A stretch of 64,000 bases of DNA from NCBI RefSeq assembly GCF_009831625.1, contig NZ_WUUS01000007.1, positions 186,001 through 250,000 of the forward strand, given 5' to 3'. The notes under the pieces were generated by a model, which was not told the DNA's origin, searched no databases, and was given only the letters and a program-made list of their open reading frames with translations. This document shows positions 13,148-18,301 of this stretch, one piece after another (the stretch's first letter is position 1; every line of letters begins with the position of its first letter). This DNA is from Halobaculum saliterrae (GTDB lineage: Archaea > Halobacteriota > Halobacteria > Halobacteriales > Haloferacaceae). Both the position numbers and the translations under genes were made by a program.

Positions 13148-13918
13148 TCAGTCCGCGGTCGCGACGGGGGAGTCGCGGCCGGAGTCGTCAGCGTCGCGGT
13201 CGACGGCGACCGCGTCCCGCTCGTGCCGGAAGATCCCGCGATGCTCGTGGACGACCCACGTGTACGGCACCTTCGCTGCCACGTCCATGAACGTCACGAG
13301 CATGGCCGTGCCGAGCGTGGAGACGAGCCCGAATCCGACGGGGCTCGCCAGCCAGATGACGGGGTACAGCAGCCAGAGGACGCCGACCTGATTGCGGAGG
13401 CGGAGGAACAGCCGCTTCCGCTCGGGCGACGTCGCCCTCGCCCGCCGCGGGTACTGGACGAACAGCACGTACAGCATGAGCAGGAACGCCAGCGTGGAGA
13501 CGGTGAACGCCCCCCACCGGAGCGTCCCCGCGGTGGTCGTCGCGACGAAGCCCGTCAGGATCATCGTCGCGTCGAGGCCGACGGCGCCGAGGACGACCGA
13601 GCGGTCGACGTCGACGACGTGGCCGGCGTAGCCGACGAGCACGGGCGTCGTGACGAGCCAGTCGAGATAGCGCACCCCCTCGACCTCGTAGCCGTTGATC
13701 GAGATCACGCCGATACCGAGGGTCATGCCGGCGTACGACAGCCCCGCGAACGCCGGGATGATCATCAGGTACCGGAACTTCCCGGCCTCGGCGTCGAGAT
13801 CGCCGTCGCGCAGCAGCCACGTCACGACGACGACGCCGACCAGCATTCCGAGCGTGCCGACGCCGTAGACGACGGAGTCGACGCCGCCGAGCGACGGCGA
13901 GAGGAGATCGCCGATCAT
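13148..13918 (-). CDS. sopI: Sensory rhodopsin I-like photoreceptor
   Basis: A 256-residue seven-helix microbial rhodopsin. Lys216 in FMDVAAKVPY is the retinal Schiff base lysine, Asp212 and Asp86 (RYLDWLVTTP) form the counterion pair, and Arg83 is conserved. The position of the proton donor of bacteriorhodopsin is Tyr97 (VLVGYAGH), as in sensory rhodopsin I, so this is a sensor and not a pump. Helix B (IIPAFAGLSYAGM) also matches SopI. Gln177 stands where H. salinarum SopI has the signalling His166 (compared from memory). A 25-residue hydrophilic acidic tail follows helix G. The gene overlaps the end of the transducer gene by four bases, so receptor and transducer are made together. Confidence 0.93.
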   Translation of the reverse strand: MIGDLLSPSLGGVDSVVYGVGTLGMLVGVVVVTWLLRDGDLDAEAGKFRYLMIIPAFAGLSYAGMTLGIGVISINGYEVEGVRYLDWLVTTPVLVGYAGHVVDVDRSVVLGAVGLDATMILTGFVATTTAGTLRWGAFTVSTLAFLLMLYVLFVQYPRRARATSPERKRLFLRLRNQVGVLWLLYPVIWLASPVGFGLVSTLGTAMLVTFMDVAAKVPYTWVVHEHRGIFRHERDAVAVDRDADDSGRDSPVATAD

Positions 13919-15498
13919 CGGTGCTCACCTCCGTGGACGGCGTCGCCGCCGTCGCTCATCGCCGGTCTGCCGGCCCCGCCCCGGCCGCCGGACCCGGAGG
14001 CCGTCGGCGTCTCCTCGGCGGCCGACTCCCGGACCTCGAACTCCGAGAGCACGTCGAGCAGGTCGTCCGAGCGCGCTCGGAACGTCTCCGACTCCTCGAC
14101 GACCGCGTCGACGGCGGCCGACTGCTCGCTGGCGGCGGCGTCCGCCTCGGCCGCGCGGTCGGCCGTTCGGTCGCTGTTCTCGGCGAGGTCGTCGATCGTC
14201 TCGGAGACGCCCGCGGCGGCCGACGCCTGCTCGCCGGTCGCGTCGCTGATCTCGCGGACGCCCTGATCGAGGTCGTCGACGGCCTCCGCGATGTCGTCGA
14301 GGCGGTCGACGGCCTCGGCCACGGTCGTCGAGCCGTCGCTCACCTGCTCGCTGGTCCGTCGGATCGCCTCGACCGCGCGCTCGGTCTCGGTGCGCACCTC
14401 GTCGATCATCTCCGCGATCGCGTCGGCTCGGTCACCGGTGTCCTCGGCGAGCCCCTTGACCTCCTCGGCGACGACCGCGAAGCCGTCGCCGGCGTTGCCG
14501 GCGTCGCTGCCGGCGCGGGCGGCCTCGATGCTCGCGTTCAACGCGAGCATGTTCGTCTGCTCGGCGATGTCGCGGATGAGCTCGGCCGCCTCCGTGATCT
14601 CGGCGGTCGCGTCGTCGAGCGTCTCGATCCGGTCGACCGCCTCGCTCATCGTCTCGTCCACGTCGCCCATCGTCTCGATGGCGTCGCCGGCGGCCGTGCG
14701 GGCCTCCTCGGAGGCGTCCGCCGCCTCGTCGGTCGTCTCGACGAGCGACTCGGTCGTCGCCGCCACCTCCTCGGCGGTCGCCGAGAGGTCGGCCGTCTCC
14801 TCGGCGCCCGTCCGGGCGGTCGCGCGCTGCTCGTCGGTCGCGGCGTCGATGTCGTCGGTCGCCGCGAGCACGTCGTCCGTCCGGTCGTCGATCTGTTCGG
14901 CGGCCGCGCGGACGTCGGCGGCCCCGTCGGCCACGTCGCCGGCGAACGTGTCGACGCGTGCGAGGGCGGCCTCCAGCTCGTCGACGGCGTCGTTGAACGC
15001 CGTCCCGACCGTCTCCATCGCCTCGTGCTCGTGGTCGACGTCGACCCGACGGCGTAGGTCGCCGTCCGCGACCGCGCGCATCGTCCCGGCGTAGTCGGTC
15101 GCCGTCCGCTGGTAGTCCTCGGCGAGCGACTGGGCGCGCGACTCCGCGGCCTCCGCCTCCGCCCGCGCCTCGTCGGCCTCCTCGATCCGGTCGGCCAGCG
15201 AGCGACGCATCCGGTCGACGGAGCTGTACACGCGGCCGAGTTCGTCGATCCGGGACGTCCGGACCTCCACGTCGAGGTCGCCGTCCGCGATCGCTTCGGT
15301 CTGTTCCTCCAGCGTCCGCATGGAGACGACGGTGTTGGTGCCCAGATACGCTCCCAACACCACCTGTCCCGCGGTCGCCATCAGTATCGTCCCCACGACG
15401 TTCCGCGTCACGAGCCCGTAGCCGACGGTCGCGCCCGTCGTGAGCGCGAACCCGACCAGGAGCTTCGCCGCGAAACTTCGTCGGAGTAGTTGTACCAT
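13915..15498 (-). CDS. htrI: Sensory rhodopsin I transducer, methyl-accepting
   Basis: A 527-residue methyl-accepting phototaxis transducer. Two membrane helices (residues about 11-30 and 36-54) are joined by a very short outside loop, as in HtrI and unlike transducers with a large ligand domain. A HAMP region follows (about 55-105) and a second HAMP-like segment around DVDHEHEAMETVGTAFN. The signalling hairpin tip is at residues 313-330 (EQTNMLALNASIEAARAG) and AVVAEEVKGLAE (341-352). It docks to the rhodopsin in the membrane and controls CheA. The Gly-rich C-terminus is unconserved. The ATG at 15496-15498 directly precedes the first helix. Confidence 0.93.
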   Translation of the reverse strand: MVQLLRRSFAAKLLVGFALTTGATVGYGLVTRNVVGTILMATAGQVVLGAYLGTNTVVSMRTLEEQTEAIADGDLDVEVRTSRIDELGRVYSSVDRMRRSLADRIEEADEARAEAEAAESRAQSLAEDYQRTATDYAGTMRAVADGDLRRRVDVDHEHEAMETVGTAFNDAVDELEAALARVDTFAGDVADGAADVRAAAEQIDDRTDDVLAATDDIDAATDEQRATARTGAEETADLSATAEEVAATTESLVETTDEAADASEEARTAAGDAIETMGDVDETMSEAVDRIETLDDATAEITEAAELIRDIAEQTNMLALNASIEAARAGSDAGNAGDGFAVVAEEVKGLAEDTGDRADAIAEMIDEVRTETERAVEAIRRTSEQVSDGSTTVAEAVDRLDDIAEAVDDLDQGVREISDATGEQASAAAGVSETIDDLAENSDRTADRAAEADAAASEQSAAVDAVVEESETFRARSDDLLDVLSEFEVRESAAEETPTASGSGGRGGAGRPAMSDGGDAVHGGEHR

Positions 15499-15616: not shown

Positions 15617-16516
15617 CTATCCGAACGAGCCCAGGCTCGACTGGCGTGCGGGCTCGCCCTCGCCCTCGACGACCTCGTACCCGACGAGGTCGCGAACGTC
15701 GACGGCGTACGTCGTGCCGCCGTTCTCCAGCACGAGGACCCGCCCCTTGGTGCCGACGACGGTGCCCGAGGCGAGCGTCTCGGCGACCGGCCGCCCGACG
15801 AGGTCGAGGCCGTAGTCGAACGCGAACGACGCCTCGTAGTCGACGCCGGCGAGCAGCGTCGACCAGGCGTCCTCGTCGACGGTCGCCCCGAGGCCGTCGA
15901 CCTTCGTCGGCACGCGGACGCGATCGGGGAGGCCGTCGGTGTCCGGCGAGCCGTTCCCGGCGGCCGCGGCGCTGTCGCCCGTCCGATCACCGTCGACGCG
16001 CTCCAGCCCGTGCGCGGCGATCCCGGCCTCGATCTCGCGGGCGATCCGGCCGTTCTCGACGGTCCGCAGGTGGACCGCTCGGTCGGCCCCCTGCTCGCGG
16101 AGGCGGGTGTCGAGTCGCCAGTCCCTCGTCACGCCCACTTTGAACGTGTCCGGGGCGAACGCGGCGACGTAGATCGCGTGGTCGTCGAAACAGTCCATCT
16201 CGTCCTTGAGACACGCCCCGGTACACCGCGCGCACACCCACGTCGACCGGTGGTCCTCACAGTACGGCGCGGTCTCGTTCCCGCAGGCGACGTGTCCCCC
16301 GTCGTGGACCGTGCCCGCACAGCGTCGATCGCCGAGGCGCCACGACAGCTCCGTTCCGGCGTCCAGGGCGACTCGGTCGACCTCGCCGGTCGCGGCTCCG
16401 GGCGGGGCGTCCGGATCCGGGGCGCCGTCGCTGACGAACAGCGCGCCCGCCGGCGTCTCGTAGCCCACGATCTGCACGAGGCGACGTAGCCGGCCGGGCG
16501 ATAAATCGGTGTCCAT
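15617..16516 (-). CDS. DUF2797 protein with zinc-binding cysteines
   Basis: A 299-residue DUF2797 protein. The centre has paired cysteines suited to zinc: CAGTVHDGGHVACGNE, PYCEDHRSTWVCARCTGACLKDEMDC. After this comes a GIY-YIG-like strand pattern (AIYVAAFAPDTFKVGVTRDWRLDTRLREQGA), which is typical of the family and suggests a link to GIY-YIG nucleases. The C-terminal third is a small beta domain (LVGRPVAETLASGTVVGTKGRVLVLENGG). Function unknown. It is transcribed in the same direction as htrI, with about 118 bases between them. Confidence 0.85.
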   Translation of the reverse strand: MDTDLSPGRLRRLVQIVGYETPAGALFVSDGAPDPDAPPGAATGEVDRVALDAGTELSWRLGDRRCAGTVHDGGHVACGNETAPYCEDHRSTWVCARCTGACLKDEMDCFDDHAIYVAAFAPDTFKVGVTRDWRLDTRLREQGADRAVHLRTVENGRIAREIEAGIAAHGLERVDGDRTGDSAAAAGNGSPDTDGLPDRVRVPTKVDGLGATVDEDAWSTLLAGVDYEASFAFDYGLDLVGRPVAETLASGTVVGTKGRVLVLENGGTTYAVDVRDLVGYEVVEGEGEPARQSSLGSFG

Positions 16517-16598: not shown

Positions 16599-16653
16599 AT
16601 TCTATATCTGCTTTATCACATAATACCAATATCTATAAGATAGAATTTTATAG
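16599..16653 (+). promoter_or_regulatory. AT-rich palindromic promoter region of the halolysin gene
   Basis: About 60 bases of A/T-rich DNA stand out against the 70 percent GC surroundings. TTTTATAG (16646-16653) is centred about 28 bases before ATG 16678, so the transcript is probably leaderless. Upstream there is an inverted repeat ATTCTAT (16599-16605) / ATAGAAT (16640-16646), and inside it TATCT-ATA-AGATA, a perfect palindrome (16630-16642). These are plausible operator sites for a regulator of protease expression. Confidence 0.55.
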
Positions 16654-16677: not shown

Positions 16678-17880
16678 ATGGAACGGGACGGCTGCAAGTT
16701 CAGACGTGACGTACTGAGGGGGGTCGGCGCGGCGGTCGCGGGCACTGGACTCGTCGGAGTGGCGAGCGCCGGTGGCCCGGAAACCGTCGAGGTCAACGTG
16801 GGGTACTCGGCCCCGAGCGGACTGCGGGCGGCACGGGCGGAGGCGGCGGCGGTGGTCCGCGAGTTCGCGTTCGACGCGCTCACGATCCGCGTGAGCGAGA
16901 ACGCGATCGCGGGGCTACGCCAGCGTCCGGACGTCCGCTACGTCGAGGCCAACGGAACGATGCACGCGATCCACCACCGCGACGGCCACGACGGCGGCCC
17001 CGGTGGCGGCGACGACGGCGGTTCGACGAGTCAGACGCTCCCGTGGGGAGTCGATCGGGTCGACGCCGAGACGGCCCACGCCAACGGCGACACCGGCGCC
17101 GGGGCGGACGTGGCGATCATCGACACCGGTATCGACTCCGACCACCCGGACCTGCAGGCGAACCTCGGGGAGGGGAAGGCGTTCGTGAAATGCAAGGGCG
17201 GGGACTGCAACGTCGCCTGGGACGACGACAACGACCACGGCACACACTGTGCGGGCATCGCGGACGCCGACGACAACGACGAGGGCGTCGTCGGCGTCTC
17301 CACGGAGGCGACGCTCCACGCGGTGAAGGTCCTCGACAAGCGCGGCTCCGGGAGCTTCTCCGACATCGCCGCCGGCATCGAGTACACCGCCGACCAGGGG
17401 TGGGACGTCGGCTCGCTCAGTCTCGGTGCCTCCTCCGGCTCCCAGACCGTGAAGGACGCCTGCACGTACGCCCACGACAGGGGTGTGCTCCTCGTCGCCG
17501 CGGCGGGTAACGACGGACCCTGTACGGACTGCGTGGGCTACCCCGCCGCCTACAGCGAGTGCATCGCGGTGGCCTCCTCCGCGAGCGACGACACGCTCTC
17601 GGACTTCTCCTCGACGGGTTCGGAGGTCGAGCTGATCGCTCCCGGGACCGACATCTACTCCACGATCCCGGGCGGCTACGACACCTTCTCGGGCACGTCG
17701 ATGGCCTGTCCGCACGTCTCGGGCGCGGCCACACACCTCATGGCGAACGGCTACACCAACGAGGAGGCCCGATCTCGGCTCAAGAGTACGGCCGAGGACG
17801 TCGGGCTCGCCGACAACGAGCAGGGAAGCGGGCTGCTCGACGCCGCCACGGCGCTGGGCTACGACTCCGGCGACGACTGA
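16678..17880 (+). CDS. Tat-exported subtilisin-like serine protease (halolysin-like, S8)
   Basis: A 400-residue secreted protease. The N-terminus has a twin-arginine signal (FRRDVLRGVGAAVAGTGLV, cleavage near residue 32), then an I9-type propeptide (about residues 36-95) and a His/Gly/Asp-rich linker. The catalytic triad is complete: Asp149 in AIIDTGIDSDHPDL, His187 in DHGTHCAG and Ser341 in SGTSMACP; Asn278 of the oxyanion hole is in AAAGNDG. Several Cys could form disulfides. Classical halolysins carry an extra C-terminal domain of over 100 residues; here the protein ends right after the catalytic domain. The next gene encodes a protease inhibitor-like protein. Confidence 0.94.
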   Translation: MERDGCKFRRDVLRGVGAAVAGTGLVGVASAGGPETVEVNVGYSAPSGLRAARAEAAAVVREFAFDALTIRVSENAIAGLRQRPDVRYVEANGTMHAIHHRDGHDGGPGGGDDGGSTSQTLPWGVDRVDAETAHANGDTGAGADVAIIDTGIDSDHPDLQANLGEGKAFVKCKGGDCNVAWDDDNDHGTHCAGIADADDNDEGVVGVSTEATLHAVKVLDKRGSGSFSDIAAGIEYTADQGWDVGSLSLGASSGSQTVKDACTYAHDRGVLLVAAAGNDGPCTDCVGYPAAYSECIAVASSASDDTLSDFSSTGSEVELIAPGTDIYSTIPGGYDTFSGTSMACPHVSGAATHLMANGYTNEEARSRLKSTAEDVGLADNEQGSGLLDAATALGYDSGDD

Positions 17881-17935
17881 CGGGCGGTCCGGCGACGACC
17901 CGTGGTTTCTTTTCGCGGCATACTGACTCGAAGGC

Positions 17936-18301
17936 ATGGCAGAAACGCTCGACGCGACGCTGACTGTCGCGCCGTCCGAGGACGGACTGACCCTCACACT
18001 GACGGTCGAGAACGTCGGGGACGGGGACGTCGACCTGTCGTTCCCGGACGGCCAACGAGCCGAGTTCGTCGCGGTCGACGCCGCCGGCGACGGCGACGGC
18101 GACGAGGTCTGGCGCTGGAGCGGGGGGAGGGCGTTCGCGATGGCGCTCGGGAGCGAGACGCTCGAACCCGGAGAGGCGGTGAACTACGAGGGGAACTGGG
18201 CGTCGCCGCCGCCGGGGGAGTACGAGGTAACCGGGTCGCTGGCGTCGACAGGCGCCGACGCCGACGCGTCGATGACCGTGGTCGTGCCGGACGGCGCATA
18301 A
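17936..18301 (+). CDS. BsuPI-type proteinase inhibitor-like protein
   Basis: A 121-residue all-beta protein that resembles the BsuPI (intracellular proteinase inhibitor) domain: LDATLTVAPSEDGLTLTLTVENVGDGDVDLSFPDGQRAEFVAVD, then EVWRWSGGRAFAMALGSETLEPGEAVNYEGNW and PPPGEYEVTGSLAS. BsuPI inhibits subtilisin inside Bacillus cells. This gene starts 55 bases after the halolysin stop codon on the same strand, so a role in keeping the protease inactive before export is an attractive inference. There is no signal peptide, so it acts in the cytoplasm. A TTTCTTTTCG stretch about 27 bases before the ATG suggests it also has its own promoter. Confidence 0.78.
   Translation: MAETLDATLTVAPSEDGLTLTLTVENVGDGDVDLSFPDGQRAEFVAVDAAGDGDGDEVWRWSGGRAFAMALGSETLEPGEAVNYEGNWASPPPGEYEVTGSLASTGADADASMTVVVPDGA

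Follow-up and report, generated by a model that had tools for sequence, protein, structure and literature searches.

Among the closest described systems, the protein IPI of B. subtilis (BSU11130, structure 3ISY; PF12690, former MEROPS family I22) has been reported as an inhibitor of the protease Isp1 with a Ki of about 1e-9 M (PMC3901451). This inhibition is disputed and family I22 was dropped by MEROPS as uncertain; according to a survey of 2013, an IPI-family gene was located near a subtilisin gene in no completely sequenced species (PMC3901451). Staphostatins A and B (ScpB, SspC) of the staphopains, and Spi of SpeB, represent small cytosolic inhibitors encoded beside the gene of a secreted protease zymogen, and the staphostatins are thought to stop prematurely activated staphopain in the cytosol (PMC3462683, PMC4490255).

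According to PMC6085418, SptA, a halolysin exported by the Tat route, self-activates inside cells (citing Du et al. 2015), and its active form builds up inside ageing cells; when export is slowed, active enzyme appears within the cells and they die (again citing Du et al. 2015). This account agrees with the premise of the initial annotation of the DNA studied here, namely that a folded and active Tat-exported protease is dangerous in the cell. The Tat route exports folded cargo, a secreted protease could thus become active before leaving, and the question of how cells survive this has been raised by the SptA work. From the haloarchaeon Natrialba magadii an intracellular subtilisin inhibitor, NSI, was purified (Gimenez et al. 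2003, as related in PMC3403918), and its gene is described there as not assigned by 2012. In the window, as we call the whole stretch of 64,000 nucleotides analysed here, a Tat-type subtilase gene is followed by a gene of the BsuPI family, and the pair was compared with its counterparts in other haloarchaea.

The protease and BsuPI genes of the window

The protease ORF (16678..17880, forward strand) encodes a short S8 subtilase of the halolysin type with 400 residues, which matches PF00082 at residues 141-385 (E 5.4e-54) and aligns with pro-subtilisin E (3WHI) from residue 58 onward (E 4.3e-63). Its N-terminus, FRRDVLRGVG...VASA, reads as a Tat-type signal and predicts export; the signal peptide (residues 1-31; 16678..16770, forward strand) comprises the FRRDVLR motif, a hydrophobic stretch and ASA. 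The following region (residues 32-117; 16771..17028, forward strand) was assigned to prodomain and linker. The I9 prodomain match was weak and below cut-off (residues 62-96, E 0.052), and the assignment is backed in addition by the alignment to pro-subtilisin E and by that to the prodomain of Tk-subtilisin. The catalytic domain (residues 118-400; 17029..17877, forward strand) was delimited from alignment columns, its mature start at residue 118 being placed by the subtilisin alignment. The same columns, all on the forward strand, locate the catalytic residues D149 (17122-17124), H187 (17236-17238) and S341 (17698-17700) and the oxyanion residue N278 (17509-17511), all of which are intact, so that the signal motif and the full triad named in the initial annotation are both present. 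Just 59 residues lie beyond Ser341 and a C-terminal extension is absent, for which reason the protein is named here a short relative and not a classical halolysin. The absence of the extension had been pointed out before and stands; its supposed novelty does not, since Hou et al. 2022 (pmid 35435453) had reported a halolysin that lacks this extension.

The BsuPI gene (17936..18301, forward strand) starts 55 bases after the stop of the protease gene, with spacing, strand and coordinates of the pair exactly as first annotated, and is the only BsuPI copy in the genome. Its product of 121 residues, a proposed cytosolic subtilase inhibitor, matches PF12690 at residues 6-104 (E 4.8e-24; 84.7 bits against a cut-off of 22.9) and was related to IPI 3ISY by phmmer (E 3e-6). 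The AlphaFold2 model, built with 59 relatives, reached a pLDDT of 89 and superimposed best on IPI of B. subtilis (Z 16.1, rmsd 1.9 A, 113 residues aligned), with the runner-up chain at Z 9.2. According to the model, the protein adopts the IPI variant of the Ig fold, and the structure prediction on which the initial annotation had made its reading depend thus came out in its favour. No signal peptide was found for the protein, and no in-frame start upstream of 17936 could supply one; none was found either among the haloarchaeal BsuPI start regions examined. The description of the second protein as cytosolic and BsuPI-like is borne out by family match, predicted fold and the lack of a signal. 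In the BsuPI proteins of loci L020/L023 (G007) and L019/L024 (G022) a polar acidic insert directly precedes the conserved W-R loop and splits the Pfam match in two.

The IPI segment docked in the subtilisin active site comprises residues 62-68 with Gln as P1 (PMC3901451). Its counterpart in the alignment of the window protein to 3ISY is the loop GRAFAMAL (residues 64-71; 18125..18148, forward strand), with Met69 at the P1 position. Among 116 haloarchaeal BsuPI proteins, P1 is Gln in 105 and Met in 11, and residues 57-73 form the most conserved stretch, with a mean entropy of 1.19 versus 1.76-1.88 elsewhere. The wedge-loop pattern hydrophobic-hydrophobic-[T/A]-P1 occurs both in GRAFAMAL and in the GRMF[AT]Q of most relatives. 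Judged from these sequences, the conservation of the loop is consistent with active-site binding by BsuPI. It bears as well on the proposal, raised for IPI on the ground that casein relieves the inhibition (PMC3901451), that such a protein is no true inhibitor and acts as a competing substrate or decoy which slows proteolysis. A tight reversible inhibitor would, however, act alike (PMC3901451), and the strong conservation of the BsuPI loop argues against a decoy, which we consider very improbable.

A TATA-like box (TTTTATAG; 16646..16653, forward strand) lies 25-32 bases before the ATG of the protease gene and was read as a probable leaderless promoter, and a T-rich box (TTTCTTTT; 17906..17913, forward strand) 23-30 bases before the ATG of BsuPI may be a promoter of its own. 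Similar enrichment was observed across loci, the mean A+T content at -35..-22 being 77% for linked proteases (n=123) and 64% and 60% for linked and unlinked BsuPI, respectively, versus 28-32% in directly flanking stretches. Leaderless promoters are therefore likely for both genes; the proteases appear to have promoters of their own, and BsuPI probably does. Hence the two genes do not have to belong to one operon. A simple operon was set aside as unproven, since AT-rich boxes precede the proteases and BsuPI in linked and unlinked loci alike.

Linkage and co-occurrence across haloarchaea

Of 392 Halobacteriales genomes, 220 contain BsuPI, in almost all cases as a single copy. Comparison of its coordinates with those of homologues of the window protease (P0001) revealed a protease within 15 kb of BsuPI in 58 genomes, a number that undercounts the linkage since the best 4 protease candidates per genome were scored. 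All 91 close pairs found by coordinates lie on the same strand, and BsuPI is downstream in 85 of them. About 19 kb around each of 120 haloarchaeal BsuPI genes were searched again for subtilases, and subtilase genes were found at most 9.5 kb from BsuPI in 65 loci, which is not a frequency as the sample was partly picked for linkage. By group codes, the linked loci belong to 9 families and 25 genera; among loci with named records 27 of 80 are linked, e.g., those of Haloferax marinum, Halogranum amylolyticum, Halobium salinum, Haloprofundus marisrubri, Halostella pelagica, Halorussus ruber and Haladaptatus litoreus. The search confirmed that protease and BsuPI are paired across haloarchaea far beyond chance, and the conserved adjacency sought by the initial annotation in other genomes exists. 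Linkage as a general trait of the BsuPI family was rejected, as it was not seen in the fetched loci of Gemmatimonadota and other bacteria (flanks of up to 6 kb). Several of those bacterial loci encode BsuPI N-termini that resemble lipoprotein signals.

Many linked loci are tandem protease arrays that close with a single BsuPI gene on their 3' side. The longest of them (L086, 4846-18065, reverse strand) has ten short Tat-subtilase genes in a row and one BsuPI gene behind them. BsuPI is upstream of the proteases in few loci (L056, L060 and, mostly, L070). The Tat motif RRx[VILMFA][LIMVFA], predicting export, is carried by 131/131 linked proteases of 350-520 codons. A dead pseudoprotease as the nearest neighbour of BsuPI was considered and rejected, because D, H and S are kept in nearly all unbroken copies, with few split or truncated exceptions. 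In 16 array proteases, often at a similar position of the array, Gly replaces the Asn of the oxyanion hole and D/H/S are kept (L095, 8218-9423; L080, L085, L086, L088, L089, L161 and others); the activity of these enzymes may be lowered or altered.

Linkage is not obligatory, as an adjacent protease is missing in 55 of the 120 BsuPI loci examined and 60 short proteases among the matches listed lie far from BsuPI. Since many BsuPI genes adjoin no protease, BsuPI must either act in trans as well or serve some other purpose. Presence in the same genome is more general than adjacency: where a close protease homologue is present, 143 of 158 genomes have BsuPI, and where there is none, 77 of 234, counted with no correction for phylogeny. 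Likewise, a short homologue is listed for 99 genomes, of which 96 have BsuPI and 3 do not, versus 43 of 55 genomes that have BsuPI among those with long homologues only, again with no phylogenetic correction and with a 'long' class that may be overestimated since protease frame lengths were taken from stop to stop. Short proteases thus track BsuPI. Within the genus of the window, BsuPI adjoins the short protease in all six genomes that carry one; G009 has BsuPI and lacks the short protease, and G010 has a long halolysin and lacks BsuPI.

At the head of eight arrays (genus code g48, with named members of Haladaptatus) the first gene is an ORF of about 75-80 codons, mostly with a GTG start after a TTTAATAA-type box, whose product is 37-59% identical to protease prodomains and lacks both a protease domain and a signal peptide. 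Such stand-alone prodomain genes were located in L202 (488-712, forward strand), L224 (1519-1743), L252 (273-506) and L075, L076, L079, L081 and L084. A Foldseek search of the PDB with the model of the stand-alone prodomain gave modest E-values, each above 0.001, and most of the top matches were subtilisin prodomains. The window does not contain a gene of this kind; the prodomain of its protease is homologous to these products. Prodomains of the subtilisin type are known inhibitors of their own proteases. The stand-alone prodomains are therefore probably, as far as similarity can tell, a second cytosolic inhibitor unrelated to BsuPI, and would independently support containment of the proteases in the cytosol.

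The left border of the window locus, outside the pair, is a DUF2797 gene (15617..16516, reverse strand; PF10977, E 4.1e-19). Further to the left, a rhodopsin gene (PF01036; 13148-13918, reverse strand) overlaps a HAMP/MCP transducer gene (13915-15486, reverse strand) by four bases, an arrangement like that of sensory rhodopsin/transducer pairs. The usual site of haloarchaeal BsuPI is between DUF2797, on the opposite strand, and a group of Trm56, TFE and DUF2110 genes, with proteases optional in between, and DUF2797 adjoins BsuPI in 56 of the 65 loci with linkage and in 42 of the 55 with no linkage. In the sister species G009 (L166) the interval from DUF2797 to BsuPI is devoid of a protease, which points to BsuPI as the stable element of the locus and to the protease as the variable one.

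These identical flanks of linked and unlinked genes, together with the protease-free interval of G009 and the retention of BsuPI in many genomes with no neighbouring protease, could be taken as a sign that BsuPI is a general cytosolic housekeeping inhibitor or binder with no particular tie to this protease, next to which proteases inserted and duplicated by chance at a conserved DUF2797 - BsuPI - Trm56/TFE site. Such an origin of the adjacency appears quite unlikely to us, since in many genera the arrays expanded in precisely the DUF2797-BsuPI interval and on the same strand, short proteases are seldom found in genomes devoid of BsuPI, and linkage recurs outside the DUF2797/Trm56 site (L057, L061, L074, L087, L111). 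On the BsuPI tree, built from few columns, parsimony counts 19 changes of the linkage state, nine or more of them on well-supported branches. Both the linked pairs outside the usual context and the repeated changes argue against mere synteny inertia, which as a sole explanation is weakened.

Proposed containment of Tat-exported proteases

We consider it likely that protease and BsuPI form a containment pair, in which BsuPI, as a predicted inhibitor, guards the cell from its own protease. The protease precursor, bearing Tat signal and prodomain, would fold in the cytosol and leave the cell in the folded state. Part of the molecules would lose the prodomain by self-cleavage ahead of export; such prematurely active enzyme would be blocked by cytosolic BsuPI, whose conserved loop GRxF[AT][QM]x[LI] would occupy the active-site cleft. 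The exported protease would be beyond the reach of BsuPI; given proteases with Tat motifs and a BsuPI with no signal, the two would meet in the cytosol only. In favour of this reading stand the same-strand linkage, the arrays that close with one BsuPI, the co-occurrence in genomes, the linkage at other sites, the stand-alone prodomains, the harmful self-activation of SptA and the Ki reported for IPI. The analysis shows the identity of both genes, the catalytic residues and Tat motif of the protease, the fold of BsuPI and its lack of a signal, the wide linkage, the tie of short proteases to BsuPI and the conserved loop; self-activation of the window protease in the cytosol, its binding and inhibition by BsuPI and the protective role are what we infer.

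Several observations stand against containment. The prodomain alone could keep the protease silent, MEROPS removed the IPI family over doubted inhibition, linkage is not obligatory, and genomes with long halolysins and no BsuPI exist, including G010 in the genus of the window. The linkage and localization data would, moreover, fit a role of BsuPI as a Tat chaperone or quality-control partner, which keeps the precursor export-competent and hands it over to the translocase with no inhibition of the active site. Bacterial Tat substrates often have dedicated cytosolic chaperones encoded alongside. The nearest folds to IPI are, in addition, protein-binding Ig domains (PMC3901451). We nevertheless regard a chaperone as unlikely, since conservation peaks in the loop that docks in the subtilisin active site, which is no obvious binder of signal peptides, halolysin genomes devoid of BsuPI exist, and the stand-alone prodomains of the same arrays point to inhibition.

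Containment can be extended to a dedicated haloarchaeal system in which a single BsuPI would keep in check an array that can grow to as many as 10 separately promoted Tat-subtilases, sometimes together with a prodomain inhibitor. The BsuPI family would then consist of genuine subtilase inhibitors and might include the missing gene for NSI of Natrialba magadii. This wider picture is plausible and we hold it tentatively. The linkage offers a testable answer to how cells survive Tat-exported proteases, and co-expression of the inhibitor could aid the production of halophilic proteases.

Comparison with known systems

The pairing is a widespread association that had previously been denied, and from the sequences an inhibitory function of BsuPI is likely. 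The one survey of the IPI family, which also questioned whether its members inhibit proteases, saw no proximity to subtilisin genes (PMC3901451); this view no longer holds, being contradicted by present-day haloarchaeal genomes: IPI genes showed no such proximity in the survey of 2013, whereas for haloarchaeal BsuPI it is common. This reopens the question of whether the family dropped by MEROPS consists of genuine protease inhibitors. No paper on a haloarchaeal protease/BsuPI pairing was found in the open-access literature, subscription papers being outside the search, and to that extent the impression of the initial annotation that no such system had been described is confirmed. BsuPI genes occur in other Natrialba species (L193, L210, L212, L214, L220, L227), and the BsuPI of Natrialba is a candidate for NSI, which is only a suggestion.

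The halolysins 172P1, R4, Nep and SptA share with the window protease the Tat signal, the prodomain and an S8 domain with intact triad; the classical halolysins have a C-terminal extension, whereas the window protease has none. No description of a partner inhibitor gene for classical halolysins was found in the open-access literature. IPI of B. subtilis resembles the window BsuPI in family, predicted fold and aligned loop, and a subtilisin is the proposed target in both cases. The reported target of IPI, Isp1, is an intracellular protease, whereas the neighbour of the window BsuPI is a predicted Tat-exported subtilase. In its gene layout the pair resembles staphostatins with staphopains and Spi with SpeB, as a small putative inhibitor gene encoding no signal adjoins the gene of a secreted zymogen. 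The staphostatin/staphopain systems, in contrast, employ other inhibitor and protease families and co-transcribed genes, whereas here own promoters are likely for both genes and the predicted export route is Tat, with folded cargo.
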